DNA from: Nitrospirota bacterium
GTDB lineage: Bacteria; JACPQY01
Reading direction: 5' to 3'
Length of the DNA stretch: 37,435 bases
NCBI GenBank assembly: GCA_016180645.1
Contig: JACPAV010000031.1
Coordinates: forward strand, 1-37,435
Position numbers and translations under genes: made by a program
Part shown: one piece after another, positions 12,765-29,040 of the stretch
Position numbering within the stretch: the first letter of the stretch is position 1
Layout of the letters: every line of letters starts with the position of its first letter
The notes under the pieces: model-generated
The model's database searches: none
The model's input: only the letters and a program-made list of their open reading frames with translations
What the model was told of the DNA's origin: nothing

Positions 12765-12773
12765 GGTGGGTCA

Positions 12774-13256
12774 CTACTGCCCGAGCGCGAGCGTGCGCTG
12801 GGCCATGGTTTTGGCGGCGTTGATCGCCGTCACGTTCGCTTCGTAATTGCGGGTGGCCGCCATGAGGTTGACCATTTCTTCGATGGTGTTGATGTTGGGC
12901 ATCATCACGTAGCCGTCCCGATTGGCATCCGGATGGGAGGGATCGTACACGAGCTTAGGATCTCGCGGATCTTCCACGATGTCAACCACTTCCACTTTCC
13001 GGACCTCATTCCCCCCCAGCGCCGTTCGGAGAGCCTCCTTGAAGGCCTCCGGAGCGGGGATATACGGAAAAACCGGATTGCGCGCGTTCTGGTGAAGCCC
13101 CCCCGAAGCGAACACGACGTCCCGCCGACGGTACGGTCCGCCCTCCACCGTGCGGGTGGTCTGGGCGTTCGCCAGGTTCATCGAGATGACGTTCATCCGC
13201 ACCCTCTGGGCATAGAGCCCCGAGGAGCTGACTTCCATCGCGCTGAATAGATCCAT
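12774..13256 (-). CDS. flgC: flagellar basal-body rod protein FlgC
   Basis: FlgC, a proximal rod subunit exported by the flagellar type III system. MDLFSAMEVSSSGLYAQRVRM and the rod signature NVISMNLANAQTTRT form the N-terminal helix; the C-terminus TIEEMVNLMAATRNYEANV, AINAAKTM is characteristic. Starting at the ATG at 13254-13256 gives 160 aa, slightly longer than the typical 135-150; the extra residues lie in the middle around FKEALRTALGGNEVRKV. The frame is open about 30 codons further upstream, but those residues resemble non-coding DNA. Confidence 0.96.
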   Translation of the reverse strand: MDLFSAMEVSSSGLYAQRVRMNVISMNLANAQTTRTVEGGPYRRRDVVFASGGLHQNARNPVFPYIPAPEAFKEALRTALGGNEVRKVEVVDIVEDPRDPKLVYDPSHPDANRDGYVMMPNINTIEEMVNLMAATRNYEANVTAINAAKTMAQRTLALGQ

Positions 13257-13355
13257 GATCGTTAGGAGTGATGGGTGAGGAGTGATGCGATGGGGAATTC
13301 GCAGAGTCTCATGATTCCGCCCGCATCCCTCATCACGCTTCACCCTTCACGCCTG

Positions 13356-13781
13356 TTATCGTCCGCTTTCCATGATGACGGTGCGAATCGTATTGATGCG
13401 TCCGCGCAGAATTTCGGCTGCCGTTTGGTACATCATCTGGTTCTCGGCCATCCGCGTCATTTCGCGTTCGGCATCCACGCTGTTGTAGTCGTTTCCGGAG
13501 GTCGGCGGCGCTTCCACCAGGTGCTGCGGTTGAACCCCGGCCAGATCGGATTGAAAACCTGAGAAGTGCTTTTGATCCGTCATCTTCATGCGGAGGGTGC
13601 CTTCCTTGCGCATCGCCTCGCGGAGGAGGCCCTCGAAATCGACATGGACCGCCTTGTAATTCGGTGTCTCTGCATTCGCGAGATTGGCGCTGATGAGGTT
13701 GTGCTGGAGCGTGCGGAAGTCCATGACCTTCTGCAAAAGCAGACCGGTCTCTCCCATCAAAGCATCAGCTATACCTGGCAT
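13356..13781 (-). CDS. flgB: flagellar basal-body rod protein FlgB
   Basis: FlgB, the most proximal rod subunit. The protein (141 aa) shows the rod signature NLISANLANAETPNYKAV, and the C-terminal part VDAEREMTRMAENQMMYQTAAEILRGRI is typical. The ATG at 13779-13781 is chosen because a GGAG ribosome site lies 6 nt upstream and a sigma-54 promoter predicts transcription start near 13793, leaving a 12-nt leader. The open frame extends 18 codons further, into the promoter, which cannot be translated from that transcript. It is the first gene of flgB-flgC-fliE-fliF. Confidence 0.96.
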   Translation of the reverse strand: MPGIADALMGETGLLLQKVMDFRTLQHNLISANLANAETPNYKAVHVDFEGLLREAMRKEGTLRMKMTDQKHFSGFQSDLAGVQPQHLVEAPPTSGNDYNSVDAEREMTRMAENQMMYQTAAEILRGRINTIRTVIMESGR

Positions 13782-13792
13782 CCTTGGCTCCG

Positions 13793-13819
13793 TAGGTTTG
13801 ATTCGCAATGCACATGCCA
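13793..13819 (-). promoter_or_regulatory. sigma-54 (-24/-12) promoter for flgB operon
   Basis: On the minus strand TGGCAT, five bases, TTGC occupy 13819 to 13805. The invariant GG and GC are separated by exactly 10 nt, as required, and ten of the core bases match the consensus TGGCAC-N5-TTGC except one. The predicted start site is about 13793, 12 nt before the flgB ATG with the GGAG site between. The sigma-54 activator gene lies immediately upstream, so enhancer sites for it may lie within 13820-14100. Confidence 0.78.
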
Positions 13820-13937
13820 GAAGGCCGGTCCGCAAGCATCTGAAAATTCGTCGTTTCCTTGGGCATCCCCTTGCCCGTGGTGTTGGCTGGGAAAAAGCTG
13901 CCGGGCATCCGGAAAGTTCTGCCGATCTTCGAGCAAT

Positions 13938-15302
13938 TTATGAGAGTTCTTCGGGCGCTTCAATTCGATACTCATGCAGCTTGTTTCTTAATGTTCGGAC
14001 GCTGATGCCCAGAATGTTAGCCGCCTTCGTGCGATTGCCCTGGACGGACTGGAGCGTACGAAGGATCAGGTTGCGTTCCACTTGATCGAGCGATTGGCCG
14101 ACGGCCGGCCCCTGTCCTCTGGCTTCCGGAAGCGTGAGGGTTTGGAGTTCATCTTTCAGGTGGTGGAACGTGATCGTCCGATCGTTGCAAAAGAGGACGG
14201 CGCGTTCGATGAGATTTTCCAGTTCGCGCACGTTCCCCCGCCATCGAGCCGAGCGGAACGCTTCCAGAACCGCGGGATCCAGCCCTTCCACCCGACGCCG
14301 GTACTTCTGGTTAAAATGCTTGATGAAATGTTCGCTGAGGATGGGCAGATCGTCCAGGCGATCGCGGAGCGGAGGAAGCGTGAGGGGAATCACGTGAAGG
14401 CGGTAAAAAAGATCTTCCCGGAAGCGACCGGCATGGATTTCTTCTTTCAGGTCCCGGTTGGTCGTGGCGACGACGCGGATGTCCACGGAGAGAGGCGCGC
14501 GCGAGCCCAACCGATCGATCGCCCGTTCCTGGAGCACTCGGAGAAGTTTGGCCTGGAGATGAAGCGGCACCTCGCCGATTTCGTCCAGGAGAAGGGTCCC
14601 CTTGTGGGCCAGTTCGAACTTGCCCTTGCGATCGCGGATGGCGCCGGTGAACGCCCCCTTTTCGTAGCCGAAGAGCTCGCTCTCAAGGAGACCCTCCGGA
14701 AGGGCGGCACAGTTGATGGCCACGAACGGATTCTTTCGGCGGGGGCTGCTCTCGTGGATCGTCCGCGCGAGAAGCTCCTTGCCCGTGCCGCTTTCCCCGA
14801 GGATCAGCACGGTCGCATCACTCTCGCCGGCTTCACGCGCACGGTCGAGAAGGGCCCGCATTCTCGAATTCCGAGTCACGATCTCCGTCGATCGCCGGCC
14901 GTTGGAGGCTTCCCGCGGCTCGGGGCCTCGAGCGGAATCGGTGGGGCCGGTCAGGACCCGGTCCACGACCTTTTCGAGGACGTCGATCGAGAAGGGCTTC
15001 ATGAGGTAGTCGGAGGCGCCGGCCTTCATGGCATCCACGGCGTCCTGCACCGTCGCGTAGGCCGTAAGGAGGACGATCGAGATGTCTTCCCGGCGGCGCC
15101 GCGCTTCGCGGAGGAGGTCCATTCCGGTGATGCCGGGCATTTTCACGTCACTCAAGACGAGGTCGAAGGAATCTTCATCCAGCACTTGCAGCGCCTCGTT
15201 CGCCCCGGAGACGGCCTGAACTTCATGGCCGAGCCGCGAGAGACTCGTCCGTAAGGCCACCAGCATGCCTTCATCGTCGTCCACAACCAGTATTCGAGCC
15301 AT
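13938..15302 (-). CDS. NtrC-family sigma-54-dependent flagellar response regulator
   Basis: A 454-aa three-domain activator. Receiver: acidic pocket VVDDD (7-10), phospho-acceptor D52 in LSDVKMPG, Lys in LMKPF. AAA+ domain: Walker A GESGTGKE (169-176), the sigma-54 contact loop GAFTGA (216-221), Walker [10 protein letters not shown] (236-244). C-terminal Fis-type helix-turn-helix [20 protein letters not shown]. With the kinase 2 nt upstream it forms a two-component pair like FlgS/FlgR or FleS/FleR, which switches on rod and hook genes with sigma-54. A matching promoter lies directly downstream before flgB. The start has a GAGGGA ribosome site. Family certain, target assignment inferred from position. 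Confidence 0.94.
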
Positions 15303-15304
15303 GG

Positions 15305-16138
15305 TCAGTCCCTCGGCAACACGACGCTGAACGTCGAACCTTGTTCCGGCAGGGACTGGACGTCCACCCGGCCGCGATGGGCTTCCACGATCTCCCGCAC
15401 GATGGCGAGGCCGAGACCCATTCCGCCCTCCTTCGTGGTGAAGAAGGGATCGAAAATTCGCGCCACGGTTTCGGGGGCCATTCCTGCGCCCGTATCCGAG
15501 ATCCGCACCTCCAAATCCTTTCCTGCACCCCCGTTCTTTCCCGGATGGAAGCCCAGCGTCAGCGCCCCCCCCCCCGGCATGGCGTCCAAGGCATTCGTAA
15601 TCAGGTTCATGAAGACCTGACGCAGAAGATCGGGATCGCCCTGGAGGAGCGTCCGATCCGTGGCCTGCTCACGGACCACGTTCACGCCTGTGCGCCGGCT
15701 GAGGATGAGCGAGAAGTCGAGCGCCTCATCCACGATGTCTTTCACATCGCAGGGTCTCACCTTCGGCATGTTGAACCGCGTGTAGAGGAGAAGATTGCTC
15801 ACGATCCGGTTAAGGCTTCTCACCCCGAGGAGAATATGTTCCGCGTTGTTGAGTTTCTCGGGATCCCCTTCGAGGTCTTGTTTCAGCATGGAAGCGAACA
15901 GTTCGATGCTCCCGAGCGGGTTGCGGAGTTCGTGGGCGATGCGCGCCGCCATTTCGCCCATCGAGGCCAGTTTGGTCTTGAGCGCGAGTTCTTCATTCTT
16001 CAGGGCCAGTTCGGCGCGGAGGCTCGCCACCTGCCCCGTCAGATCGTGGTAGGCCCTTTCCAGCCCCTGGCTGGCCTCGCTCCAGGCGCGGAAGAACTCG
16101 CCGAACTGTTCCTGCGTCTTGGGATCCAATTCGGTCAC
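15305..16138 (-). CDS. soluble histidine kinase of the flagellar sigma-54 system, with 11-G tract
   Basis: A 277-aa kinase without membrane segments, like FlgS or NtrB. An N-terminal helical region is followed by the H-box ARIAHELRNPLGSIEL (phospho-acceptor H69), the N-box MNLITNALDAM (N182), G1 DTGAGM (D215 first residue) and G2 EGGMGLGLAI. GTG at 16136-16138 is chosen as start, with a G-rich ribosome site; the open frame further upstream runs through the AT-rich palindrome and the end of the pilZ gene. Residues G189-G191 just after the N-box are written with eleven consecutive G (C at 15565-15575 on the plus strand). A one-base slip there would truncate the kinase before G1. It partners the NtrC-type regulator 2 nt downstream. 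Confidence 0.93.
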   Translation of the reverse strand: MTELDPKTQEQFGEFFRAWSEASQGLERAYHDLTGQVASLRAELALKNEELALKTKLASMGEMAARIAHELRNPLGSIELFASMLKQDLEGDPEKLNNAEHILLGVRSLNRIVSNLLLYTRFNMPKVRPCDVKDIVDEALDFSLILSRRTGVNVVREQATDRTLLQGDPDLLRQVFMNLITNALDAMPGGGALTLGFHPGKNGGAGKDLEVRISDTGAGMAPETVARIFDPFFTTKEGGMGLGLAIVREIVEAHRGRVDVQSLPEQGSTFSVVLPRD

Positions 16139-16157
16139 CCCGCACCCCCCGGAAGAG

Positions 16158-16180
16158 ATCTCAAATTTGAAATTTGAGAT
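16158..16180. repeat. AT-rich perfect palindrome
   Basis: Arms ATCTCAAATTT and AAATTTGAGAT around a single G (16158-16180), with a further partial copy to 16190. It lies between the pilZ stop and the kinase start and is markedly more AT-rich than the surroundings. It could be an operator, an RNA hairpin in the operon transcript, or a fragment of a dispersed repeat. Confidence 0.6.
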
Positions 16181-16181
16181 T

Positions 16182-16808
16182 TCAAATCTCCTCTTCCCCC
16201 ATCCGGCGCCTGCGGAGGGCGTCGCGCTGCCGTTGGAAAACATATCGGACGAGCAGGTCGCGGTCCTCCTCGATGATGAATGCAAAACGAACGCCGGCGG
16301 CCACCATCGGCGGCTGTTCCGCCGCGAGGTTCACCACGCTGCGCACGTCGCCGAGCGCCGGAATCTCGATGCCGTGCGCGAGCGGAATATCAAGAACGAG
16401 TTTCACTTTGTCCCCCGCCTTGAGTCGGTGCACCGTGTTCAGTTGCACGCCCCCCGCGCTGACGTCGATCGTCCGGGCGGGGATGAAGGCCGGCGCGCCC
16501 TGGGCCTGCCGTTCCAGGATCTGGAGCACGCGGTTCATGCGGCCCTGGAGATCGAACATGAGGTGGACGAGGCGCGTGCCGGTGTCGTCCTTCTCTTTTG
16601 ATCCCGCCATGGGCTGCTGCTGCGTGAGCCAGCGATAGTAGGTGTTGAAACTCGACGCGCGGCTCTCGAGCAGTTCCTTCTCGCTTTCGAATTCGCGGGA
16701 CGTCAGCACGTTCATCCGGACGTTCATCACCGCCCGGACCCGCACGTCCCTTCGTTGCCGGATCAGCTCTTCTTCATCCTGACGGATGGCTGCTGATTCC
16801 CCCATCAT
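16182..16808 (-). CDS. PilZ-domain protein, likely c-di-GMP receptor
   Basis: 208 aa. The PilZ signature D-x-S-x-x-G is present as DVSAGG (115-120), followed by beta strands VQLNTV, DKVKLVLDIP and a final strand AAGVRFAFI, then a helix rich in Arg. An Arg-rich stretch RQRRDVRVR (17-25) at the start may supply the RxxxR motif, but it is separated from the signature by a roughly 85-residue helical insertion (about 30-105). Such helices between motif parts are known from tetrameric PilZ proteins; that comparison is inference. PilZ proteins commonly slow flagella or control biofilm. The start has a strong GGAGGTG ribosome site, and the gene follows the TPR gene by 28 nt. Confidence 0.8.
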   Translation of the reverse strand: MMGESAAIRQDEEELIRQRRDVRVRAVMNVRMNVLTSREFESEKELLESRASSFNTYYRWLTQQQPMAGSKEKDDTGTRLVHLMFDLQGRMNRVLQILERQAQGAPAFIPARTIDVSAGGVQLNTVHRLKAGDKVKLVLDIPLAHGIEIPALGDVRSVVNLAAEQPPMVAAGVRFAFIIEEDRDLLVRYVFQRQRDALRRRRMGEEEI

Positions 16809-16836
16809 GTTTCACCTCCGGGCCTCCTGCCCTTTG

Positions 16837-19434
16837 CTATTCCGGGGCTTTGAAATACCCCCGGTAGACCTCTCGGGCGCGGGCGAAATCTCTCAGACCC
16901 GAACTGATCGTCTGCCACATCGGGTCGGGCGACGACGCCAGCGCCTCGTATCCCTTCAATGCCTCCTTGGGGCTCTTGAGGAGTTCTTTGATGTAACTCA
17001 TGCGATACTGGGCCCATTCGCCTTTCTCCCCCTTCGAAGAGAGACGGTAGGCCTCTTCGTACGCCTTGAGCGCCGGCCCATACAGGCCGGCCATGTAGAA
17101 GCTGTCCGCAAGCTGGAAATGGGACTCCAGCACGGCGGGCGGCACTTCCCTGGATTTCTGTTTGGAGGCCAGCGCGAGCACGCTCACATAGGCCTCGGAA
17201 GCTTCCAGATATTTTTTCAGCGTGAAGAGCGAGTTCCCGATAAAGTAGAAGGCGGCGACGGCCCGGGGCGATTCGGGCTGGGCGACCAGGAACTGCCCCA
17301 GCGCGGCGATGGCCTCCGGGAATTTCCCTTGGTTGTACGTCGCTTCCCCAAGGGCGTAGAGCATCTCATTCCGGTATTTCCCGCTCGGAAAGAAATCAAG
17401 ATGCTTCTTGAGAATTTCCTCAGCGCGCGCAAAATCCCCTTCGCGCAGATAGGTGACTCCGATGAGATATCCACAATGCTCGTCCACTTCCTTGGTCGGC
17501 CATTTCTGGATCACGCGGTACAGGAACTCCCTCGCCTTGGCATACAGGCCCATTTCGTAGAAACTCTTGCCGAGCACGTACAGCACGTCCAAGTCGAACG
17601 CCCCTCGCAGGAAAGGCGATTCGATGTAGGAATCGTGCAGCTTGAGGACGGTCATGTAGTCGCCCGCCTCGTAGTAGTACCCGATGCCGTCTTTGAAGAT
17701 GTGGTACAGATCGCCCCTCGCCCCTTTCGCGAACCGGCCGTAGGGGAAGGTCTTCATCATTCTCTCCAACGCGCGGAGGGATTCGTCGTACCTGCGCTGC
17801 GTGAACATCAGGAGCGACAGTTTGTACAGCGCCGCTTCAGCCTGGGGCTGGAGAGGATGATGGCGGGCCACGCCGCGATAGATCGCTTCGGGGTTGACTT
17901 CATCGGTCGCCCACCACCCGCCGCGGAGCTTTGTGCGCACGGGCCGCTGGAGCGCGATGTCCGCGAGGCCAAGAAGCGCATAGCCGACGCTTTCGGACCC
18001 CTTGTACTGGCCTACCACTTTGGCATAAGCGTTCGCGGCGTTCGAGTAGTCCTTCTTCAGCGCGAGGACGTTGGCGATGCGGAGCTGCACCTCGTCCGCA
18101 AATTCGCGCCGGCCGTATTGCCCTTGGAGGTAAAAGAGGAGGGACAGCGCTTCATCGAAGAATTGCGTTTTCTCGAAGGCGAGAGCGAGCTTCAGCATCG
18201 CTTCGGGATGGAGCCGGATGAACCGCGGCCATCGCTTGTTCCCTTCGTTGTAAACGGTGAGGCTGTCTTCGTAGCGGCCGAGGATGACATCGAGGTCCGC
18301 CAGGCTGAAAATCGCCTCCGTCACTTGTTCGGCGTCGGGATGATCGTACACCACGCCCAAAAGGGTTTTCCGGCTGGAGTCGAACTCCCGAAGGTTGGCC
18401 TGCGACTTGGCCACCATGAGATCGACGCGGGGCCGGTAATCGCTGTCCGGATACTGTTCGCGGAAGAAGGCGCCCATGCCGAGGACGTAGGTGTTGAACC
18501 CGAGATACTGCGCCATTTCGATGATGCGGTAGTACCCGTGAGCCGCCAGGGGGGACGAGGGGAACCGAAGGGTCGCGTCGCGAAATGCGTTGTCCGCCAA
18601 CCGGTAGTAGAGTTTGTATCGGCGCGGCCGGCCTGAATTCTGATCCGCCCGTCCGATGCGGAAGAGGCACTCGCCCATGATGTAGAGTGCGGGTCCCGCC
18701 GTGGAGCTGTTGGGATACTTCTGAAGGAGAAACGCGAGCGTCTCCGTGGCCGGACCGCAGGAACCGCGGCGGAAGGCGGAGTAGCCGCGCTGGAAGACGG
18801 CGGCGTCGGCAAATCCCGGCGTGGGGCCGGTTGACGCTTTCTCGCCGCCGGGAATGGGCGGCGGCATGCCCGGCGCCTGGGCGACCCCGGCGTCCGGCTC
18901 CGCTTCCGGTTCGACGGAAGGCTTCCCGGCCAGACCCGCGACGATCGAGTAGACTTTTCGGAGCGGCCCCGTGATCGCGTCCAGGACTTTCGCCATAAAG
19001 CCCTTGTGGATTTCCTCCTTGGACGGCTCGGCGACCTTGACTTCCCGTCCGGGCTCCTTCTTCTTCGGCTCCTCCTTGGCCTTCGCGTCCTTCGTCTCGG
19101 CGGCCGCCTTTTCCTTGCCGGCCTTTTTCTCCTTGCCCTCGTCTTTCTTCTTGGCGGTCTTCTTGCCTTTCTTCTCCTCCTTCTTGCCCGCCTTCTTGGG
19201 TTCGCTTTCTCCGGACTCCGATTTCCCGAATAGCCGCGTGATGCTCCGCCGGATGACTTTGAAGATCCCGCCCTCTTCCTTGTGTTTGAAGTCGACGTCC
19301 TCCTCGGGAAGGATGACTTCGACGGGCGGAACGGCTTTGTGATGGTTGTTCTTCGGCTCGGCGGCGTGGAGAGCCTCGACGCGCGCGGCGAGGATGAGCG
19401 CCAAAATCAGTGCGAAGCGGGCCGGACGCAGCAT
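16837..19434 (-). CDS. exported TPR-repeat protein in flagellar operon
   Basis: An 865-aa protein starting at the ATG at 19432-19434, which gives a clean signal peptide (MLRPARFALILALILAARV, cleavage near LHAA). Next comes a Lys/Glu-rich low-complexity segment (about residues 65-140, many KK and KE pairs), a Pro/Gly-rich linker, and from about residue 220 to the end a solenoid of tetratricopeptide repeats, visible as repeated YxLGxxxFxxGxYxxAxxxF patterns: LYVLGKSFYEMGLYAKAREF, LYALGEATYNQGKFPEAI. It is probably periplasmic and may bind peptidoglycan-associated or motor proteins. Position between a FlgN-like gene and pilZ suggests a role in motility or its assembly. No exact family recognised; the name is structural. 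Confidence 0.75.
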   Translation of the reverse strand: MLRPARFALILALILAARVEALHAAEPKNNHHKAVPPVEVILPEEDVDFKHKEEGGIFKVIRRSITRLFGKSESGESEPKKAGKKEEKKGKKTAKKKDEGKEKKAGKEKAAAETKDAKAKEEPKKKEPGREVKVAEPSKEEIHKGFMAKVLDAITGPLRKVYSIVAGLAGKPSVEPEAEPDAGVAQAPGMPPPIPGGEKASTGPTPGFADAAVFQRGYSAFRRGSCGPATETLAFLLQKYPNSSTAGPALYIMGECLFRIGRADQNSGRPRRYKLYYRLADNAFRDATLRFPSSPLAAHGYYRIIEMAQYLGFNTYVLGMGAFFREQYPDSDYRPRVDLMVAKSQANLREFDSSRKTLLGVVYDHPDAEQVTEAIFSLADLDVILGRYEDSLTVYNEGNKRWPRFIRLHPEAMLKLALAFEKTQFFDEALSLLFYLQGQYGRREFADEVQLRIANVLALKKDYSNAANAYAKVVGQYKGSESVGYALLGLADIALQRPVRTKLRGGWWATDEVNPEAIYRGVARHHPLQPQAEAALYKLSLLMFTQRRYDESLRALERMMKTFPYGRFAKGARGDLYHIFKDGIGYYYEAGDYMTVLKLHDSYIESPFLRGAFDLDVLYVLGKSFYEMGLYAKAREFLYRVIQKWPTKEVDEHCGYLIGVTYLREGDFARAEEILKKHLDFFPSGKYRNEMLYALGEATYNQGKFPEAIAALGQFLVAQPESPRAVAAFYFIGNSLFTLKKYLEASEAYVSVLALASKQKSREVPPAVLESHFQLADSFYMAGLYGPALKAYEEAYRLSSKGEKGEWAQYRMSYIKELLKSPKEALKGYEALASSPDPMWQTISSGLRDFARAREVYRGYFKAPE

Positions 19435-19438
19435 CGGA

Positions 19439-19882
19439 TCAGGACGCCCGATCCAGGTAGACTCCGCGGCGGGCCGGAATCCCGTAGGCCCCTTGAGCCT
19501 TGTTCCGGCGAGATCGGACTCGGGCGAGGTCCTCATGCACGGAAGTTTTCTTTGTTTTCATCCGCTTTTCAACCTCTTTGTCCAGGTGGAGCTGTTCCGC
19601 AAGCATGAGGGAAAGCATCTCACGATGCTCCTTCAGGGGTGAGACGGAAGCCTCTCGCAATGATTCGGGGTATGCATCGCCCAGGATTCCGGCGATGCGG
19701 GACTCCACGCGCTGGATTTTCTTGATCACACGACCCCGCCGGCGCACGCCGAAAAGGAGACGGAGGTCATCGTCCGCAGCCATCGATTCCAGCATGGTTT
19801 TCGTCGCATTGAGCAGCGCACGGTAGTAGAGAATCTCCAGCCGGAGATTTCTCTTGAGCAATGGCGGTTCCCCTTGTGGCAT
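19439..19882 (-). CDS. FlgN/FliT-like flagellar chaperone candidate
   Basis: A 147-aa, all-helical, charged protein without signal. It has a central heptad-like region (KKIQRVESRIAGIL) and ends in RSRRNKAQGAYG; FlgN-type chaperones are similarly sized helical proteins often ending in an Arg-rich segment before AYG. FlgN protects hook-filament junction proteins before export. The resemblance is weak and rests on size, helicity, tail and neighbours. It opens the flagellar/c-di-GMP operon: a strong promoter lies directly before it, and the TPR gene starts 4 nt after its stop. The ATG at 19880-19882 lies 10 nt from the -10 box, so the transcript may be nearly leaderless. Confidence 0.5.
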   Translation of the reverse strand: MPQGEPPLLKRNLRLEILYYRALLNATKTMLESMAADDDLRLLFGVRRRGRVIKKIQRVESRIAGILGDAYPESLREASVSPLKEHREMLSLMLAEQLHLDKEVEKRMKTKKTSVHEDLARVRSRRNKAQGAYGIPARRGVYLDRAS

Positions 19883-19921: not shown

Positions 19922-20028
19922 GCAGAATCAAAAGAAATCAAAATAATTCAAAATACTACATTTACACACAGACCTTCACCTCTTTCTGAAGATGATCGGC
20001 GATTTTGAGAAAAGACTTGAAATTCGGA

Positions 20029-20182
20029 CGCAGGCTGAAGCCTGCGGCTACCAGGAGCTACCGAGAGCTGCCAAGAGCGCAGGTCCATGGTAGGCGCAGG
20101 CCATGGTCCATGCCGTGCCATCCGTGGCACGGCGACATATCATGGCCCCATTCCCTCCGTGGCATGGGGCTTTACGCCTGCG
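20029..20182. repeat. cluster of REP-like palindromes
   Basis: 20029-20051 is a hairpin GCAGGC-TGAA-GCCTGC followed by GGCTAC (GTAG head on the minus strand). 20112-20133 is a perfect 9-bp stem GCCGTGCCA/TGGCACGGC with loop TCCG. GTAGGCGCAGGC (20090-20101) and GCCTGCG (20176-20182) form an outer pair. The first unit shares its core with the repeat at 22501-22523. Confidence 0.7.
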
Positions 20183-20243
20183 GGGCCGCGCCAGGGCTCC
20201 AATTCCGCTTTACTCGAAACGGATGATTTGCTACGTTCGCCGA

Positions 20244-20807
20244 ATGACACCCAAAGAATTTTTCGAGAACACTTTGCCCTCTCTATTCAAGGGCGTGGCG
20301 GGCGGACAGCCTGAGCTTCAGCAGATCACCGGCGAGATGGAGATCGTGCTGCCGGAAGGCGGCACGTGGACGCTCGCGCTGGACAAAGGAAATCTGATCA
20401 CGAAGGAAGCCGCCGCGACCAATCCGATCGTTTCATTCACGCTATCCAGGCGGGATTGGGACCGCCTGATGCAAGGCGGAAGTTTCATGCCGATCGGTGC
20501 CGCGCCCGGTGGTGGAGCCAATCCCTTCAAGATGTCCCCCGCCCGTTTTGAAAAAGTGAAAATGCTCAAGGGCGAGCTGGTTTTTCATATCACCGAGCCA
20601 GGCGGCGAGGCACAAGACACGGTAATCCGGTTCAATCCGAAACAGGGAACCGGACCCCGCACGGAACTCGAGATGAATTCCGGCGACCTCAAGGATCTCT
20701 CAGAGGGAAAGGCCAATCCCCAACAGCTTTTCATGCAGGGAAAAATGCGCATCAAGGGCGACATGGCCTTCGCGATGCAGATCGGCTCCCTGGCCATGAT
20801 GGCCTGA
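20244..20807 (+). CDS. SCP2 sterol-binding-domain-like protein
   Basis: A 187-aa protein resembling the SCP2 (sterol carrier protein 2) fold: a short helix MTPKEFFENTLPSLF, then strands EMEIVLPEGGTWTLALDKG and NLITKEAAATNPIVSFTLSRRDW with a following helix, and the C-terminal segment KANPQQLFMQGKMRIKGDMAFAMQIG, in which GKMRIKGDM is the family's most conserved part. Such proteins bind hydrophobic ligands; the ligand here is unknown. ATG 20244 is chosen because it starts the domain; an upstream ATG at 20223 adds only seven residues and neither has a strong ribosome site. It stands alone, convergent with the FnIII lipoprotein gene. Confidence 0.8.
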   Translation: MTPKEFFENTLPSLFKGVAGGQPELQQITGEMEIVLPEGGTWTLALDKGNLITKEAAATNPIVSFTLSRRDWDRLMQGGSFMPIGAAPGGGANPFKMSPARFEKVKMLKGELVFHITEPGGEAQDTVIRFNPKQGTGPRTELEMNSGDLKDLSEGKANPQQLFMQGKMRIKGDMAFAMQIGSLAMMA

Positions 20808-20870: not shown

Positions 20871-22553
20871 CTACGGGGTGACAGAACGCTCAATCGTGTT
20901 CGAATCGCGGCGGCCGGAGGCGTCGCGGGCGCGGACGACGAAGTAGGTGGTCGACCGGGGGTTGAATTTCATCAACGTGTAGCTTATTGCGCCTGGGACG
21001 GTTTCGTACGCCGCCCAGAAGTCGGCCGGGCAATAGCCGGATTTCGAAGATTGGCAGATTTCGTAGACGATCTGGTCGACCGGCGTGGCATCGTCCGACG
21101 CCGTTGCCCACTCCAGGACGACGTCTCCGTTCCCGGAGAGCCTGGCGCTTTGCAGGCCGCCGAACTGAGGAGCTTGGGGATCGGATTCGACAGCCGGTGA
21201 GTTCGGTTGGGAGGATGGAGCGATCGGCTCCGATGCCGTTGGAGTCGCGGTTTCGCTGGAAGGTGGGGGATCAACGGAGGTGGGTGGCGGCGGCTCGGTA
21301 GGAGTCGGCGTCGGTGGAGATCCGGGCATCGTCACCGTCATCTCCTTCACGTTCGCATCCCGATTTCCCGCTTCGTCCGTGGCGCGGACGACGAAGAAGT
21401 ATTTCGCTCCCGGCGTCAGGTCTTTGGCCGTGATCGTCTTTGCATACGTCGAGCCGGCCGGCTTGAAGTCCTTAACGCACTCTCCTTCGGTGGTCGAAAC
21501 GCAGTACGCGTACCAGATCGATCCGGCAGCAGACAGATCGTCCGTCGCCCCCTCCCAGGAGAGGACCACTTCCGTCGTGGAGTTGGAATTCGCTTCCTTG
21601 ATTCCACCGAAGGTCGGCGGGGTTGTATCCGCGCGCAACTTGCCGGCGGGAGATCGGATCCGGATCGACTTTTCGATCGCGTTCGACTCGATATTGCCCG
21701 ATTCGTCGCGCGCGCGGACAACGAAGAAATATTCTCCGGGGTTGTCCGGCTTGACTCTGTAGATCTGCTCGCCGGGCCGCGTTTTGTAGGCGGAGACAAA
21801 ATTGGACCCGCAGGCGCCTTTCTCCAGCGATTGGCAGATTTCATAGGCCATCCCGATGCTCGGGCTGACCTCGTCCGACGCCGGTTTCCACGTCAGAACG
21901 ATTTCGGCGCCGACGAATACTTCTTCGTACGGAGGGCATTCCGGCGGAGATTGGATCGTATCCAATCCCTCGAAATGGGCCGGAACGGTGTCCCCCGCAC
22001 CGAGCGCCCTCGGGAATTGCGTCAATTCGGAAAGCCGAAACGCCTCGTCGAAGATCTTCAATTGATGCGCCGTGGCTTCCGGCTGACCGTTGATCGGGCT
22101 CGGCGTGGTCATCGCCACCCGCGCGCCGTATTCGACCTTCAGGCGAATAATCGTTACGTTCATCGAATCCCGCCAGACCCGCTTCATGCTTTGGCCGATG
22201 ACAAACGGTTCGGCGAGGACATTGGGCGATTCGCGATAGTTCGCCGATGGGTGAATCCGGAGCTCATCGAGCGCGAACTGACTTTCATTGCTGAGAATCA
22301 TTTCCGGGGGCGGAGGCGGCGGCTCGATCAGCTTGCACACGGGCTTGGGGGGTGGGCCGACTGCCTCCTCTCCTGATGGAGCGTACGATCCCTCATACTT
22401 GTCCGAGCACGCGGCAAAGAGGAGGGAGAGGGCCAAACCCGATACCGCAACCTGGGTAGCGACCGCCCGGTAGCCGCACCCTTTACGGGTGCGTCCTCCA
22501 CGCAGGCTGAAGCCTGCGGCTACCAGACCATCCATCCGGTCGTCAAAACACAT
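20871..22553 (-). CDS. lipoprotein with shared N-terminal domain and three FnIII-like domains
   Basis: 560 aa, last gene of the five-gene surface operon. The ATG (22551-22553) lies inside the last codons of the preceding barrel gene. Codons 11-28 are a REP doublet inserted in frame; then comes a hydrophobic core and lipobox LLFAAC. A proline-rich linker leads to an N-terminal domain (NESQFALDELRIHPSANY, later LKIFDEAFRLSEL) shared with the RCC1 lipoprotein at 24980-26473. Three fibronectin-III-like domains follow (each ending YFFVVRARD or YFVVRARD), the first two adjacent and the third after a Pro/Thr/Ser linker (PPTPTPTEPPPP). Domains one to three carry Cys pairs (YEICQS with a second Cys shortly after). 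Probably displayed on the outer membrane; function unknown. Confidence 0.8.
   Translation of the reverse strand: MCFDDRMDGLVAAGFSLRGGRTRKGCGYRAVATQVAVSGLALSLLFAACSDKYEGSYAPSGEEAVGPPPKPVCKLIEPPPPPPEMILSNESQFALDELRIHPSANYRESPNVLAEPFVIGQSMKRVWRDSMNVTIIRLKVEYGARVAMTTPSPINGQPEATAHQLKIFDEAFRLSELTQFPRALGAGDTVPAHFEGLDTIQSPPECPPYEEVFVGAEIVLTWKPASDEVSPSIGMAYEICQSLEKGACGSNFVSAYKTRPGEQIYRVKPDNPGEYFFVVRARDESGNIESNAIEKSIRIRSPAGKLRADTTPPTFGGIKEANSNSTTEVVLSWEGATDDLSAAGSIWYAYCVSTTEGECVKDFKPAGSTYAKTITAKDLTPGAKYFFVVRATDEAGNRDANVKEMTVTMPGSPPTPTPTEPPPPTSVDPPPSSETATPTASEPIAPSSQPNSPAVESDPQAPQFGGLQSARLSGNGDVVLEWATASDDATPVDQIVYEICQSSKSGYCPADFWAAYETVPGAISYTLMKFNPRSTTYFVVRARDASGRRDSNTIERSVTP
22470..22523. repeat. 54-bp REP doublet (REPIN) inside the lipoprotein 5' coding region
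   Basis: GTAG (22470), a hairpin with arms CGCACCC/GGGTGCG (22475-22493), a 7-nt spacer, a second hairpin with arms CGCAGGC/GCCTGCG (22501-22518), then GCTAC. Its length is exactly 18 codons and it is read in frame within the minus-strand gene. The second hairpin is the same family as 20029-20051. Confidence 0.8.
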
Positions 22554-24084
22554 ACGACACGGAGAGCGTGAAATCGGTCGTGTCGAGCGAGGCGGCGCCG
22601 ACGAACGAGCGCGGGCGCTCGAAAATGTCTTTCGCGGGGTTGTATTTCACGGGCGCGCGGAACTCGATGGGGTTCGGGTAGTCGAACTTCGGGTAGTAGC
22701 GCCATTCGGCAGTCCCGCTCACGGAGAGATGAATTTTCGGCACGCCGAACCCAAGCCGCCCCGCCACCGCGCCCGAACCGAGCCAGATCCATTGCGAGCC
22801 GATTTCCCGATGCTGCGCCAGTCGCACATCCGCCCACCGACGTTCAAGGACATTGGCGCCGCCCTCCGCCGTCAGGAACGAACGGACCGGGCCGAGCCGT
22901 AGGACCAGATCGAAACCGGCCCGCTGCCCCACGGCGGTGGACCGCAGATTGAGCCGGTAAGTGTTCGGCTCGGTGATGTCGATTTCCACTCCGGAATCGG
23001 GATCGGAAAAAAGGCCCTGCATGTCGGTCGTGTCCGGACGCTGCACCACCGGCACCCGCTCTCGGAAATCCGCGATGTCGATCGTCTGGTCCATGAAATC
23101 GACCGTTGGATAGATGAAAAGCCCCGTCTTCTTCGGGGTAGAATAGAGCGAGATTCGATAGCCGCTCGACCGCGCGTTCCCGCTCGCAACCACGCGGGAG
23201 CCGCTGCCGTCCTCGTCGCGAATCGAGGACGACACGCCGGCCAGCCCCTTGAAGGTGGTCAGCCGCACGCCGCCGAGCGCGCCGACGTAATTCCTCCACG
23301 CCGCTCTCCTGGGATCATCCTTCTCCTCCTTCTGGATGAGGTAGACCGTTCCATCCTGTTCCAAACTGATCCGGCGTTCCTCGGGCGCCGCCATCCCGGT
23401 CGCCTTCACAATACCGTAGATCTGACGCCATCCCGTCCCGGCGGCCACCGGTTCGGCGTAAGGCGCCTTCAGCGCCTCGAGAAATTCGCCGTGTTTGGCC
23501 GCGAGCGCCCTCGCCTGGGCACGGAACGTTTCGTGGTAGGCCCGGCGAAACGCATCCTCGATGTTCCGCCGGAGGAACCACGACCAGAACAGGATGTCAT
23601 AGGGCGCCTCGACCTCGGTGAAACTCGAATAAATTTCACGCCCGATGGGGTCAATGGCCCCCACTTTCATTCGCACAGTCACACTCCCCCACTCCGGTGT
23701 GAACGGCTGGTAGACGATCAAGCCGGGGAATACCGCGAGGGCATCCAGGAGCCACGTGCGCCGTGATTTGATTTTCGTTTCTATCCGCGCGTTCAACCAC
23801 AAGCCGTTCCCGGGAGGTCCTCCTTTCGCGCCCTTGAATCCGCAATGGGCCGTCACGTAGGTGAGGAACATATCCGACAGCATGCCGACCCTGTAGATGT
23901 CCCACTCCTTCAGACTCGCCACCTCGAAATCGCCAATGGCCACGGGGATGGCTTCGCAGTTTTCCTCAAGGACCATGTCTTCCGAGGAGGGATAACGCGG
24001 GATCATGACCCGGTGTGCGAATTGACAGGCGGGGAGCAGGAGACCGATCAGGCCCACAATCGCGAAGGAGCGGCTACACGCCAT
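22543..24084 (-). CDS. lipoprotein with barrel-like C-terminal domain, paralogue of 26463-27401
   Basis: 513 aa. The ATG (24082-24084) has a GGAGA ribosome site and opens a signal peptide with lipobox LLPAC. An N-terminal domain of about 230 residues (GDFEVASLKEWDIYRVG; FTPEWGSVTVRMKVGAID) is specific to this copy. From about residue 260 to the end it matches the neighbour: YVGALGG, GVSSSIRDED, VASGNARSSGYRISLYS, FIYPTVDF, TIDIADFRE, VGQRAGFDL, FDYPNPIEF, and the end SVSYVF. Alternating polar/apolar strands and a C-terminal Phe suggest an outer-membrane barrel; a lipid anchor plus barrel would be unusual. Its stop lies within the start of the FnIII lipoprotein gene, so both are coupled. Not in a family I recognise. 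Confidence 0.75.
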   Translation of the reverse strand: MACSRSFAIVGLIGLLLPACQFAHRVMIPRYPSSEDMVLEENCEAIPVAIGDFEVASLKEWDIYRVGMLSDMFLTYVTAHCGFKGAKGGPPGNGLWLNARIETKIKSRRTWLLDALAVFPGLIVYQPFTPEWGSVTVRMKVGAIDPIGREIYSSFTEVEAPYDILFWSWFLRRNIEDAFRRAYHETFRAQARALAAKHGEFLEALKAPYAEPVAAGTGWRQIYGIVKATGMAAPEERRISLEQDGTVYLIQKEEKDDPRRAAWRNYVGALGGVRLTTFKGLAGVSSSIRDEDGSGSRVVASGNARSSGYRISLYSTPKKTGLFIYPTVDFMDQTIDIADFRERVPVVQRPDTTDMQGLFSDPDSGVEIDITEPNTYRLNLRSTAVGQRAGFDLVLRLGPVRSFLTAEGGANVLERRWADVRLAQHREIGSQWIWLGSGAVAGRLGFGVPKIHLSVSGTAEWRYYPKFDYPNPIEFRAPVKYNPAKDIFERPRSFVGAASLDTTDFTLSVSYVF

Positions 24085-24122
24085 GCGATCTCCGATGCAA
24101 GCGGCGTGCCACCGGAAATGGG

Positions 24123-24980
24123 CTACACGACCTGAAAACCTTTTTCCGTAATGTCGAATTCCAGCTCTTCGGCTCGATGGTTGCTCCCCCGATGTTTCAG
24201 AATGCGCAGCGAGCGACACCGCGTTTCGTGCTCCTCTCTCCACCCCATGAGGATCAATGTGGAGGCGTTGTATTCGGGCCCGTCGAGCGGAATGGGTGCG
24301 CGAATGAGATCTTCCAGCATGATCTCCCGCGCCGTGACGAGCAGAACGGTCGTCACCGCTTTCTCGTCGTAGCGATGCGCGTCCACAAAAGATTTCTTGA
24401 ATCTGAAATTCTCCCGCAGGGCCTCCCGGGCCAGCCACTCCGGTTCCAGCCGGATGTACTGCTCGAATACGGTCTCGATGAACTCCGCCTGCGAGGAGGG
24501 CCGTTCCCCCAGCGGCTCGATGCCATCCACGATCACCCGCTTCCGCCCCTGGGCGAAACCCTGGTAGAGAAAGGCCGCGGTGAGCTGGAGCCGGGTTTGG
24601 AGCTGAAGGGCCCATCTCTCCGGGTCCTTGGTGACACCCAGTCCCAGTCCCGCGAAGGGGCGATACAAGTCGAACGAAGCCGGCCGCGATCGAAGGTTGC
24701 GCGCTCCGGGCAAGCCGTCTTTCTCCGTGATCGACCAGCGATGGAGCCTCCGGGCGATCGCCTTCTCGCCTTGATCGTCGCCTCGGGAAGCCAGATCCAG
24801 GATCAATCCCGGATGCCGCTCCTGATTCCGCCCGGCGTTCGCGATGCTCATGCCGAGATGCGATTTCCCGATCCCCGTGGCGCCCACGATGACCGCCAGC
24901 GTGCCCGGCACCAGCCCGCCGCCAAGAGCCTCATCCAGGGCCGCCACTCCCGTGCGGTACCTCGTGGAGCGGCTCCCCAT
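24123..24980 (-). CDS. KaiC/RAD55-like RecA-superfamily ATPase
   Basis: 285 aa, cytoplasmic, one RecA-type domain. Walker A GATGIGKS is at 33-40, preceded by GVAALDEALGGGLVPGTLAVI, the standard KaiC/RadA opening. Walker B is RVIVDG (D151). The C-terminus (LRILKHRGSNHRAEELEFDI, ending GFQVV) matches the KaiC-type ending with K-RGS-H and a final I-T-x-x-G strand. A catalytic Glu after Walker A is not obvious. Such proteins act in signalling or as switch ATPases. The ATG overlaps the stop of the RCC1 lipoprotein (TAATG at 24978-24982) and the barrel-type lipoprotein starts 38 nt downstream, so a cytosolic ATPase is embedded in an envelope operon. Partner unknown. Confidence 0.82.
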   Translation of the reverse strand: MGSRSTRYRTGVAALDEALGGGLVPGTLAVIVGATGIGKSHLGMSIANAGRNQERHPGLILDLASRGDDQGEKAIARRLHRWSITEKDGLPGARNLRSRPASFDLYRPFAGLGLGVTKDPERWALQLQTRLQLTAAFLYQGFAQGRKRVIVDGIEPLGERPSSQAEFIETVFEQYIRLEPEWLAREALRENFRFKKSFVDAHRYDEKAVTTVLLVTAREIMLEDLIRAPIPLDGPEYNASTLILMGWREEHETRCRSLRILKHRGSNHRAEELEFDITEKGFQVV

Positions 24981-26473
24981 TACGGAATCCCCGGGATGGC
25001 CATCGGAGTCGGGCGGCAGTCGTCCACGCCGCACCGATGTTGAACGAACTCGGCGAGTTGTCCGAGGGTATTGAGACCCCAACAGTACACCATCGCGTTT
25101 TCAAGACGGGCACAGGTATGCGCGACGCCCGTGGATACCGCGATCACACCCCCGAGCCCCGACACGGTCACAACGCCCTCCCTCTCGGCCCTGGCGCCGT
25201 TTCCCAGTTGTCCGAACCCGTTCCAACCCCAGCAGGCGACCGTTCCATCCGAGAGCAGCGCACAGGTGTAGTCGCTGCCTGAAGACAGCGATCGCACTCC
25301 GGCCAGCCCTGTGACGTCGACCGGGGATCTCCCGCAGGTGTCCGCTCCCCGGCATTCCGCAGGCGTGCCCCTGCCGTTCCCCAATTGCCCGTAGGAGGAG
25401 TCTCCCCAGCATCTTACGTTTCCCTCGGAGACGACGGCGCAGGTGTGGGCCGCTCCAGCCGCAACGGAGACCGCATCCGTAAGTTCGGATACTTCGGTCG
25501 GGATCGATCGAGCTTCGGTTGTCCCGTCCCCCAGTTGACCTGTAGCGTTGAATCCCCAGCAGGAGACCCGCCCTCCGCGCCGCAGGGCGCAGGAGTGATA
25601 GGCCCCGGCGGAGATGGCCTCAGCATCCGACAGCCCCGTCACGGCAACGGGCAGGTATTGATCCTCCGTCGTACCATCGCCGAGTTGACCGGCGAAATTC
25701 GATCCCCAGCAACGCACGGTTCCCTCCGTCTTGATGGCGCACACGTGCTTTTCTCCGGCGGCGAGCGCGATGACGTCGCCGATATCGACAGGGATGGCCG
25801 TCATCTCGGAGGGGATTCGCGTGCCGCTGCCGAGTCCCTCGATCGTGGTCCCCCAGCAACGCACATTCCGATCCGCCGTGAGGGCACAGGTAAACCCATC
25901 GCCCGCCGCGAGGGCGGTGAGCGTCGAAACCCCGTCGATCTTCCTAGGACTGAAGGGATCTTTCGGCCGGTCCGGTCTCGGTTTCCAGGAGTAGTCGGCG
26001 CCCCAGCACTTGACGAATCCATCCATGTCCGCGGCGCAGGCATGGTAGGCGCCGGCGGCGAGCGCCGTCGGGATCGCCGGAGGGATGTAGACGCTGGCGA
26101 GCCGGAACGATTCGTCAAAGACGGCCAGCTCCGAAAGGTACCCCGGTTTGAGCGCGCCCACCGGGGTGGCGGTCGTGAACGCGAGCACTTTGCCGTTCCG
26201 CACTTTCTCCCTCATGACCGTAACGTACCGCGTTTTGTCCCAGTTCAGCGTCAACTGGTCGTCCACCCCCATGTCGCCGTTCAGGACATTCCGGCTTTTC
26301 CGGTAATCAAGGTCCGGGTGGAGCCGGAGTTCCCGCAAAGGAAACTGGCTCGAATTGCGGATGATGAGCTTCGGCGGTTCGAGGGGTCGGCCTTTCTCCT
26401 CGGGCTCAAATTCGACGCACGAAACGATCACGAGCGCCACAATCGCGAGAGGCAAGCACGATCTAGAAAACAT
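24980..26473 (-). CDS. lipoprotein with shared N-terminal domain and seven RCC1-type repeats
   Basis: 497 aa from the ATG at 26471-26473, which lies inside the last codons of the barrel gene. The signal peptide MFSRSCLPLAIVALVIVSC ends in a lipobox (C19); the frame is open for 32 more codons upstream, but those overlap the barrel gene. The N-terminal domain (NSSQFPLRELRLHPDLDY, NVL, LAVFDESFRLASV) matches the FnIII lipoprotein. Seven RCC1/ALFI-type repeats follow, each with two Cys (HxCA...VxCWG) and most with GQLGDGT or GQLGNG: the number needed for a closed seven-bladed propeller, with a likely disulfide per blade. Secreted RCC1 propellers bind ligands or partners. Last blade reads GLNTLGQLAEF. 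Confidence 0.85.
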   Translation of the reverse strand: MFSRSCLPLAIVALVIVSCVEFEPEEKGRPLEPPKLIIRNSSQFPLRELRLHPDLDYRKSRNVLNGDMGVDDQLTLNWDKTRYVTVMREKVRNGKVLAFTTATPVGALKPGYLSELAVFDESFRLASVYIPPAIPTALAAGAYHACAADMDGFVKCWGADYSWKPRPDRPKDPFSPRKIDGVSTLTALAAGDGFTCALTADRNVRCWGTTIEGLGSGTRIPSEMTAIPVDIGDVIALAAGEKHVCAIKTEGTVRCWGSNFAGQLGDGTTEDQYLPVAVTGLSDAEAISAGAYHSCALRRGGRVSCWGFNATGQLGDGTTEARSIPTEVSELTDAVSVAAGAAHTCAVVSEGNVRCWGDSSYGQLGNGRGTPAECRGADTCGRSPVDVTGLAGVRSLSSGSDYTCALLSDGTVACWGWNGFGQLGNGARAEREGVVTVSGLGGVIAVSTGVAHTCARLENAMVYCWGLNTLGQLAEFVQHRCGVDDCRPTPMAIPGIP

Positions 26474-27401
26474 ACGAGACGGAGACCGTGACTTCCGCCG
26501 TGTCGAGCGCGGCCCCGCGCACAAATTCCCGCGGACGCTCGTTGATTTCCTTTTGGGGGTCGTAGGCAATCGCGCCCCGAAACTCGACCGGGTTGGGATA
26601 GTCGAACTGGGGATAGGTCTTCAACTCCCCCGTGGCGCTCAGTGCGAAATGCGCCTTGGGGAAAGTGAACCCCACGCGGCCGGCGCCGACGAACGAACCC
26701 AACGCCTTCAGCCCCGCACCGCGCTCCACGCGATCGCCGAGCCTCACGATGGCGTGTCGCGCCTCGACGAGATTCGCGCCGGCTTCCACCGTCGCATACA
26801 TCTCGATCCAACTGCTCCCGGCCACGAAATCGAACCCCGCCCTCTGGCCGATGCCGAGCGACCGGAGGTAGAGGCGGTAAGTATTGGGGTCCGTGATGTC
26901 GACGGTTTCACCCGTCTCCGGATCGGTCACAATCGCCGGGATCTCCTCCGCACTGGGCAGATCGATGGGAGGCACGGCTTCGCGGAAATCCGCGATCTCG
27001 ATCGTCTGGGCCAGAAAATCCGCCGTGGGGTAGATGAAAAATCCGCTGGAGCGCGGCGCGGAGAACAGCGACACCCGATATCCATCCGTTCGGGCATCGC
27101 CGCTGGCCACGTCTCGGGTACCGCCCTCCTCCGATCGAACCGACGAGGAGACCTGCGCCCAGCCCTGGAACACCGTGACTTTCAGTCCTCCCAGCGCGCC
27201 GAGGTATTTTCCCCACAGCGAACGCGGCGCGGTCTCCTTCCGGGGAGTCCAGAGGACTTGGAAGCCTTGCCCTGTCGGCGTGATGTCTGGTTTGGCTTCC
27301 GTTTCGGCCTCGGCTCGCTCCGCGGGGGTGGCATCCGAAAGGTCTGAGAAAGCCAGGAAGCAGACGAGAAAGAAGGCGAACAGGCGAAATAAACCCCGCA
27401 T
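26463..27401 (-). CDS. predicted outer-membrane barrel-type protein, first gene of the surface operon
   Basis: 312 aa with a signal peptide (MRGLFRLFAFFLVCFLAFS, cleavage near SDA). After a short linker it is homologous to the C-terminal two thirds of the 22543-24084 protein: YLGALGGLKVTVF, VASGDARTDGYRVSLFS, FIYPTADF, TIEIADFREAV, DPNTYRLYLRSLGIGQRAGF, FDYPNPVEF and terminal SVSYVF. The copy lacks the extra 230-residue N-terminal domain of its paralogue. The alternating pattern and final Phe fit a small outer-membrane barrel. The ATG at 27399-27401 is chosen for the signal peptide; a start 12 codons upstream has no better ribosome site. Its end overlaps the RCC1 lipoprotein start by 11 nt. 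Confidence 0.75.
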   Translation of the reverse strand: MRGLFRLFAFFLVCFLAFSDLSDATPAERAEAETEAKPDITPTGQGFQVLWTPRKETAPRSLWGKYLGALGGLKVTVFQGWAQVSSSVRSEEGGTRDVASGDARTDGYRVSLFSAPRSSGFFIYPTADFLAQTIEIADFREAVPPIDLPSAEEIPAIVTDPETGETVDITDPNTYRLYLRSLGIGQRAGFDFVAGSSWIEMYATVEAGANLVEARHAIVRLGDRVERGAGLKALGSFVGAGRVGFTFPKAHFALSATGELKTYPQFDYPNPVEFRGAIAYDPQKEINERPREFVRGAALDTAEVTVSVSYVF

Positions 27402-27644: not shown

Positions 27645-28178
27645 TTACTCCGTATAGAACACCACTACCTTGCAGGGCTTGTTCGCGGCGTTCGCACCCA
27701 TCATGTCGATAAAAATAGCGGATTCATCGACCTTTCCCACAACCGTCATTTGCCGACCAGAGCTTATGTCAAGGTACGAAATAAAGTCGAATAGAATTTT
27801 CTGGTAGTCCAAACCGTGTGTCACCCTGAGATTACCGCTGCCATCGACGGTGCCCGACAGTAATTTCCACCTGATACCGCCATTTTGCGTCGAGATGGCG
27901 CCCCCAACATCCATAGCCGCCGACGGACTGGACGTTCCTATCCCCACGTTGCCATCGGTGTAGACGGCATTCGCGCCGCTCTTGGTCCAATTCGGGAGGC
28001 CCTCGATGGCCTTCTTGAGATTTCCGATTGATGTATTCAGGTCGTCCGCGACAAGGGCTTCGCCGGTCGTCCAAGTCTTGACCGTTCCGACCGTCACGGC
28101 CAGGGCAACGGTTCCGATCACGCCCACCGCGATCCCCGCGCCGAGCAGCAGACCTTTCACGAACACTTGAATTCTCAT
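27645..28178 (-). CDS. secreted or membrane-anchored protein with GIGT motif
   Basis: 177 aa from the ATG at 28176-28178, which has the best ribosome site in the region (GAGGAGGT). A hydrophobic N-terminal segment (VKGLLLGAGIAVGVIGTVALAV) is a signal peptide or anchor. The middle has GNVGIGTSSPSAAMDVGGAI, a pattern typical of tail-fibre and adhesin-like proteins ahead of a C-terminal strand-rich part. The C-terminus has strands (QMTVVGKVDESAIFIDMM, KPCKVVVFYTE). It precedes the outer-membrane operon and follows the FnIII lipoprotein on the same strand. Not a family I can name; a surface or extracellular role is likely. Confidence 0.7.
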   Translation of the reverse strand: MRIQVFVKGLLLGAGIAVGVIGTVALAVTVGTVKTWTTGEALVADDLNTSIGNLKKAIEGLPNWTKSGANAVYTDGNVGIGTSSPSAAMDVGGAISTQNGGIRWKLLSGTVDGSGNLRVTHGLDYQKILFDFISYLDISSGRQMTVVGKVDESAIFIDMMGANAANKPCKVVVFYTE

Positions 28179-28198: not shown

Positions 28199-29040
28199 TC
28201 ATCCCAGAATGCACGAGCCAATCTTCGACGACCCCACAATGCACGTGGATTTTGCGTCCGGTTCGGACGGATGCGCGGGGACATCCGGCGCGGAAGGGTT
28301 GTCTGATAATTCCGCCATCGGAGTCGCCGACACCTCGCCCGACTTGTCGCTCTCGCTCCGGGAATTGAGAGCTGAAACCGCAAAGAAGTACACCTGACCG
28401 TTGCTGAGTCCGGTCAGCGTCGCGTTCAACGAACCCGCTATGCTCACCGGTGAGGCGCCCTCCTTTGCTCCCTTGCCAATGTAGGGTCCTCCCGTTTTCG
28501 CGCCATAGTAGACTCGGTATTCAGCCGCACCCGCCGACGCCTCCCATGATAGAGCCACGGAGGCGTTTCCCGTTCGCGCCTGAAGGTTCTTGGGCGGCTC
28601 AGGCGCCGCCGTGATCGCCTCAAGCGCAACGCTGATTTCCGGAGAGGCCGGCCCTTCCCCATCGGGCGCGGTCGCCGAAACCTCGAAAAAGTACGTGAGG
28701 TTCGGTTCCAAGCCTTCGATCAGAATCTCGACACGTTTCCAACGTCGGCCGGTGAATTTCCGATCGAAAGCCCCTTGCCCCTTCGCGCGGCGCTTTTCAT
28801 GTCGTAGTAGAACATGTACCCGCGCGCCCCCGCTACAAGGTCCCACGAAAGCGTCACGTTGTTCTCGCCGATGACGGATTGGATGTTCTGCGGCGCGGGC
28901 AACCCCTCGACAAGCCTTTTCTCGGCTTCCGCGGAGCAAGCGGCGAATGTCAGCGCGAATAGGAGGAGGAGGAATCTAGGGTATGACTGTGAGTGAGTGA
29001 GTGAGTGCAAGAAGCGAACCACCAGACTATTGGTGCGCAC
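28199..29040 (-). pseudogene. FnIII-domain lipoprotein with a frameshift
   Basis: From the GTG at 29038-29040 the frame gives a signal peptide with lipobox LTFAAC, then the start of an FnIII domain (VIGENNVTLSWDLVAGARGYMFYYD). It breaks at about 28775-28800, near AAAA and GGGG runs, and stops at 28720. The missing part continues in another frame: LIEGLEPNLTYFFEVSATA and a second FnIII domain ending YFFAVSALNSRSESDKSG, with a Cys-containing tail. One inserted base would restore a protein of about 280 aa. This can be an assembly error, a recent mutation or a switchable gene; the n-region also contains 4.75 copies of a GTGA tetranucleotide (28989-29007). Its start overlaps the 3' end of the upstream small gene. 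Confidence 0.7.

Follow-up and report, generated by a model that had tools for sequence, protein, structure and literature searches.

Two paralogous pairs of predicted barrel and lipoprotein genes around a KaiC-fold ATPase gene in a Nitrospirota bacterium

Gene content and limits of the locus

The window analyzed here is an entire contig of 37,435 nucleotides from a poorly sampled groundwater-type bacterium of the Nitrospirota (genome 4.7 Mb, 97% complete). Positions 20871-27401 are filled by five genes on the minus strand. In line with the initial annotation, which was made from the sequence alone, these form two pairs of a predicted barrel gene and a lipoprotein gene around an ATPase gene, and all five open reading frames were recovered where they had been placed. 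The features are listed below in the order of transcription.

26463-27401, minus strand: barrel A, 312 aa; signal peptide and predicted eight-stranded beta-barrel domain of about 260 residues, with the end SVSYVF
26463-26473, minus strand: overlap of 11 nt between the barrel A stop and the lipoprotein A start, TCGTATGTTTTCTAG
24980-26473, minus strand: lipoprotein A, 497 aa; lipobox VIVSC, orphan head of about 110 residues and seven RCC1 blades (full propeller)
24123-24980, minus strand: KaiC-fold ATPase (PF06745), 285 aa, single-domain; its start overlaps the lipoprotein A stop (TAATG)
22543-24084, minus strand: barrel B, 513 aa; lipobox LLPAC, orphan N-domain of about 200 residues, then the barrel domain
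22543-22553, minus strand: overlap of 11 nt between the barrel B stop and a possible lipoprotein B start, TCGTATGTGTTTTGA
22500-22523, minus strand: REP-type palindrome of 24 nt in the presumed N-region of lipoprotein B
20871-22553, minus strand: lipoprotein B, 560 aa; long N-region with the REP element, lipobox FAAC, head and three FN3-like domains

The ATPase gene is joined to the preceding lipoprotein A gene through TAATG, as had been described, and is separated from barrel B by a gap of 38 nt without overlap. At the lipoprotein B end, the block is bounded by a convergent SCP2 gene (20103-20807). Because promoter and terminator scans gave results at or below chance, the operon boundaries are drawn from strand, gap lengths and this convergent gene.

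Predicted barrel domains

A pairwise alignment of the two barrel domains covers 259 residues at 53% identity (277 bits), and both domains terminate in SVSYVF followed by the stop codon, which bears out the earlier claim that the genes are paralogous through their last ~250 residues and end alike. For barrel B, that claim captured the paralogous domain and missed the remainder of the protein. Barrel B is predicted to be a lipoprotein in its own right, with the lipobox LLPAC read directly from the sequence and an N-domain of ~200 residues that is absent from barrel A. No relatives of this N-domain were accepted from homology searches; two weak matches (E 0.003 and 0.006) were rejected as chance, one lying where no plausible protein gene is present, the other in a PhoD-like gene. 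Barrel A has no match in Pfam, NCBIfam or PHROG, and barrel B has no significant match in Pfam, TPR included.

AlphaFold models of the barrels were built on an alignment of two sequences only and are of low confidence, with a mean pLDDT of 33 for the whole of barrel B and 50 for the barrel A domain. Both models contain eight long strands, the C-terminal one ending in Phe, joined by short turns at one side and by longer loops at the opposite side, so that both ends of the domain would face the same side. When the low-confidence model was used for a fold search, the nearest solved structures were nearly all outer-membrane barrels, OmpA, Ail, OmpX and OmpT among them; the best match had E 2.4e-3 and none reached E 0.001. 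No solved relatives of the barrel or the lipoprotein head were found by sequence. Hydrophobic alternation along the strands exceeds that of shuffles only modestly (p=0.018, a value biased by the strands having been taken from the model). On these models, the C-terminal domain is likely to be a barrel, and we accept it as such without regarding it as proven.

Beyond its two copies at this locus, the barrel domain was not found in profile searches of 279 other genomes, including one from the same family, and a protein search of 60 genomes gave no homologues outside the source genome. Likewise, it was not detected in plasmids (tblastn) or in a scan of GTDB contigs, which uses short peptide patterns and detects close relatives only. 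As the sample included one same-family genome and no same-genus genome, these results describe absence in the sample.

Lipoprotein heads and tails

Lipoboxes were also read directly in lipoprotein A (VIVSC) and lipoprotein B (FAAC; start uncertain). The heads of the two proteins share 37% identity over 107 residues (78 bits in a pairwise alignment), and the tails differ, with seven RCC1 repeats in lipoprotein A and three FN3-like domains in lipoprotein B. The seven RCC1_2 stretches of lipoprotein A score 200 bits (cut-off 22), as for an RCC1 propeller, and each of the seven blades carries a CxnCWG cysteine pair. Such pairs would fit an oxidizing, extracytoplasmic location.

Elsewhere, the head gave one accepted match, in the only same-family genome sampled (Nitrospirae bacterium NC_groundwater_665_Ag, contig JACPQY010000018.1). 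This relative has a single head-domain lipoprotein that carries both FN3 and RCC1 repeats. Altogether, the head is found with differing tails in three proteins: RCC1 in lipoprotein A, FN3 in lipoprotein B, and the two combined in the relative. No barrel is present in the ~300 bases upstream of the relative's gene, and neither the barrel nor the ATPase gave a match elsewhere in that 84%-complete genome. Heads A and B are each nearer to the relative's head (48% and 45% identity) than to each other (39%), which suggests that the duplication is probably old and that the relative may have lost or separated its barrel. A weak match to the head elsewhere in the source genome sits in a phosphofructokinase-like gene and was rejected as chance.

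RCC1 repeats are not peculiar to lipoprotein A. The source genome holds at least 150 of them in large open frames on many contigs, and none was found in 14 control genomes. This is a strong expansion for a bacterium, and with so many repeats in the genome the tails can be viewed as stock modules.

Overlapping starts and a REP element

At both barrel/lipoprotein junctions, an ATG in the +1 frame gives an overlap of 11 nt. The initial annotation was right that the ATG lies at the same place in both copies, and this agreement is partly automatic. The ATG is embedded in conserved Tyr-Val codons (TAT GTT and TAT GTG), and since TAT-GTN contains ATG, its position is a by-product of barrel homology and does not count as independent evidence of coupling. 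In lipoprotein A, the overlap ATG is the best start for a signal peptide.

The start of lipoprotein B, which had been assumed to match, is uncertain because the REP element (22500-22523) falls within the presumed signal-peptide region, 10 codons into the frame and apparently in frame. An ATG at 22535, a few bases past the barrel B stop, is an equally possible start and would give a short gap in place of the overlap. After the REP element, no in-frame ATG, GTG or TTG occurs until a TTG ~10 codons before the lipobox Cys, so that, judging from the reading frame, either translation probably runs through the REP element or lipoprotein B has an unusual start. Allowing up to 2 mismatches, about 97 matches to the REP 24-mer were counted across the genome (reversed control pattern, 0), and a second palindrome of this family lies in the window at 20028-20051. 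The relative's lipoprotein (locus 5627-5330, minus strand) also has palindromes, GGGGCGGATCTTTAGATCCGCCC and GGGAGCATGTAAACATGCTCCC, inside its N-region or immediately ahead of it, and no in-frame ATG, GTG or TTG occurs between these and its lipobox.

KaiC-fold ATPase

The protein between the pairs, described earlier as a RecA/KaiC-type ATPase, matches the Pfam KaiC family (PF06745) with 52.4 bits against a curated cut-off of 26.6. Its motifs comprise a Walker A (GATGIGKS), a Walker B (VIVDG) and a KHRGS end motif. It is not a circadian KaiC, having 285 residues, one domain and a score of 33.7 bits against a cut-off of 546, and it falls far below the cut-off for RadA. Outside the source genome, full-length relatives (35-41% identity) were found in 3 of 289 sampled genomes. 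In another order, which looks planctomycete-like from its gene content, a profile search showed 57 of 61 genomes to have a single copy each, and the RGD and KHRGS motifs are conserved there.

Across the 15 ATPase loci examined, no neighbour is kept beyond close relatives and no barrels or lipoproteins are nearby. On this comparison, membership of the ATPase in a conserved envelope operon was rejected and, given that the family stands alone in other genomes, the ATPase would work without barrels. KaiC-like proteins are described as signalling hubs in archaea in a passage of PMC5847659 that cites Makarova 2017, which says nothing about the present family. Literature searches on planctomycete KaiC-like ATPases and on RCC1 lipoprotein/barrel pairs returned no relevant paper. 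An anti-phage or phage origin of the block was rejected, the matches being a single weak one in PADLOC, on the P-loop, and generic RCC1/FN3 ones in PHROG.

Comparison with known systems

Several described systems share features with the locus. As in TbpA/TbpB and SusC/SusD, a barrel and a lipoprotein are co-encoded and the lipoprotein would bear a binding domain. However, the barrels of TbpA and SusC are large TonB-dependent receptors with a plug and a 22-stranded barrel, whereas the barrel domain here has ~260 residues and no plug or TonB-dependent receptor match. In its low-confidence model (pLDDT 50, best fold match E 2.4e-3), it resembles OmpA, OmpX, Ail and OmpW in predicted strand number, C-terminal aromatic strand and fold matches, but differs from these eight-stranded proteins in its long loops, in the lack of sequence similarity and, for copy B, in a predicted lipidated N-domain. 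The ATPase shares Walker A, Walker B and the KHRGS end motif with ATPases of the KaiC/RadA fold (PF06745); unlike KaiC, it has one domain instead of two, and its nearest relatives are an uncharacterized stand-alone family.

The placement of an outer-membrane barrel gene beside a lipoprotein gene also recalls Slam (surface lipoprotein assembly modulator), which combines an N-terminal TPR domain with a predicted 14-stranded DUF560 barrel (PMC5449769). In contrast, the present barrels have no TPR, about eight strands in a low-confidence model and no Pfam match. Slam, TbpAB and SusCD thus resemble the present pair in layout only, the defining features that were tested being absent. A precedent for the tail of lipoprotein A is MXAN_0889, an RCC1-repeat secreted protein in Myxococcus outer-membrane vesicles (PMC4158809). 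Both are extracytoplasmic proteins with an RCC1 repeat propeller, though the present repeats follow an orphan lipoprotein head, in a gene that is paired with one for a predicted barrel.

Proposed organization of the locus

We think it fairly probable that the duplicated unit consists of an outer-membrane barrel partnering a lipoprotein head with an exchangeable tail, and that the ATPase is a passenger. The locus would have arisen when a two-gene outer-membrane unit was duplicated in tandem within this lineage, with each unit encoding a small, probably eight-stranded beta-barrel and a translationally coupled lipoprotein. Through its conserved head of ~110 residues, each lipoprotein most likely docks on the barrel of its own unit, and the head would carry a C-terminal binding tail that varies between units; the barrel would then be an outer-membrane anchor or partner. 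The tails would be interchangeable modules of a ligand- or adhesion-binding type, namely a seven-bladed RCC1 propeller in A and three FN3 domains in B, and may face the periplasm or the outside. The KaiC-like ATPase would be a cytosolic protein with a separate function, co-transcribed through its position.

The two-gene unit is reflected in the locus itself, where both halves are paralogous, occur in the same order and have short overlaps. Agreement of the two models on eight strands and a Phe end, together with the outer-membrane fold matches, points to a barrel in each unit. Likewise, the joining of one head to differing tails in three proteins and the abundance of RCC1 repeats suggest exchangeable tails, and the stand-alone occurrence of the ATPase family in other genomes argues for a passenger. 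Against the unit, the structure models are poor, with pLDDT values of 33 and 50 from a two-sequence alignment. The relative's head-bearing lipoprotein has no adjacent barrel, so the head may not need one, and the pairing rests on one genome because no second sampled genome carries the pair. In addition, a simple anchor would need neither the N-domain nor the separate lipid anchor of barrel B.

Three other explanations were weighed. The barrel and the lipoprotein may be functionally independent members of a fast-evolving repertoire, the barrel a small structural outer-membrane protein and the lipoproteins adhesin-like or sensor proteins, adjacent only through joint duplication of the block. The barrel-less lipoprotein of the same-family relative makes this a serious rival, and the swapping of tails between heads and the abundance of RCC1 repeats in the genome agree with it. 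However, the gene order is unchanged in both units and the barrels are still 53% identical, as would be expected more readily of partners that work together; we regard independence as possible but unlikely. The C-terminal domain could also be a soluble, periplasmic beta-rich domain, placing both members of each pair in the periplasm, as its lack of sequence match to any known outer-membrane protein family and the low confidence of the models would allow. The predicted eight long antiparallel strands with short turns, the aromatic C-terminal strand end and a set of fold matches that consists almost entirely of outer-membrane barrels make this the least credible of the explanations.

Dedicated surface display was likewise considered, with each barrel taking its partner lipoprotein across the outer membrane or presenting it there, Slam-like in effect, and the ATPase acting as a cytosolic regulator or energy source. 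The overlapping adjacent genes, the duplicated pair and the position of the ATPase inside the same operon are consistent with this, as is the finding that about half of Slam genes adjoin genes for lipoboxed proteins (PMC5449769). Nevertheless, display of this kind is improbable, given a predicted barrel of ~8 strands without TPR, against 14 strands plus TPR in Slam, and a cytosolic ATPase without evident contact with outer-membrane proteins. In other genomes this ATPase family shows no linkage to envelope genes, and no copy was found in the head-bearing relative. A lineage-specific, two-partner form of the idea, in which a small barrel presents a lipoprotein whose propeller or FN3 tail can be exchanged and an operon-recruited KaiC-like ATPase coordinates the system from the cytosol, is very improbable.

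The initial annotation had read the block as a duplicated surface-display module whose cytosolic component supplies energy or signalling. Its duplicated barrel/lipoprotein pair and envelope location are supported by the paralogy, the lipoboxes, the low-confidence barrel model, the outer-membrane fold matches and the cysteine-paired RCC1 blades. The cytosolic component is not: the ATPase is single-copy in 57 of the 61 genomes of the other order, has no barrel or lipoprotein neighbours in 15 loci and was not found in the same-family genome that has the lipoprotein head. A homologue lacking the conserved pairing, which the initial annotation had named as refuting its reading, is present in this one relative, whose lipoprotein has ~300 bases upstream without a barrel. 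Nothing in the results indicates that the five genes work as a conserved machine. The barrel/lipoprotein pair is lineage-specific and mostly ordinary, and what it adds is orphan domain families rather than a system of a new type.

No described family matches the barrel domain, the lipoprotein head or the barrel B N-domain, and all three are seemingly confined to a poorly sampled lineage; as a result, they can be added to the orphan envelope families. If the head docks on the barrel, the pair would provide a compact example of binding tails being swapped on a fixed outer-membrane platform. The uncharacterized ATPase family, near-universal in another order, poses a separate and better question than does its position here.

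Other features of the window

Upstream of the operon, an FN3 lipoprotein at 28199-29040 is read in two frames that overlap (28720-29040 and 28199-28939), which suggests a frameshift or assembly error near 28750. Between this and the operon, the product of 27645-28139 is small and exported, contains a fibre-like NVGIGTSSPSAAMDV stretch and has no family match. Genes for a DUF4340 protein, an ABC-associated protein (PF09822) and an ABC ATPase are consecutive at 2118-7067 and resemble gliding-type ABC transporter clusters. On the minus strand, 10731-19536 encodes a FliF-like M-ring protein, a sigma-54 response regulator, a histidine kinase, a PilZ protein and a large TPR protein.
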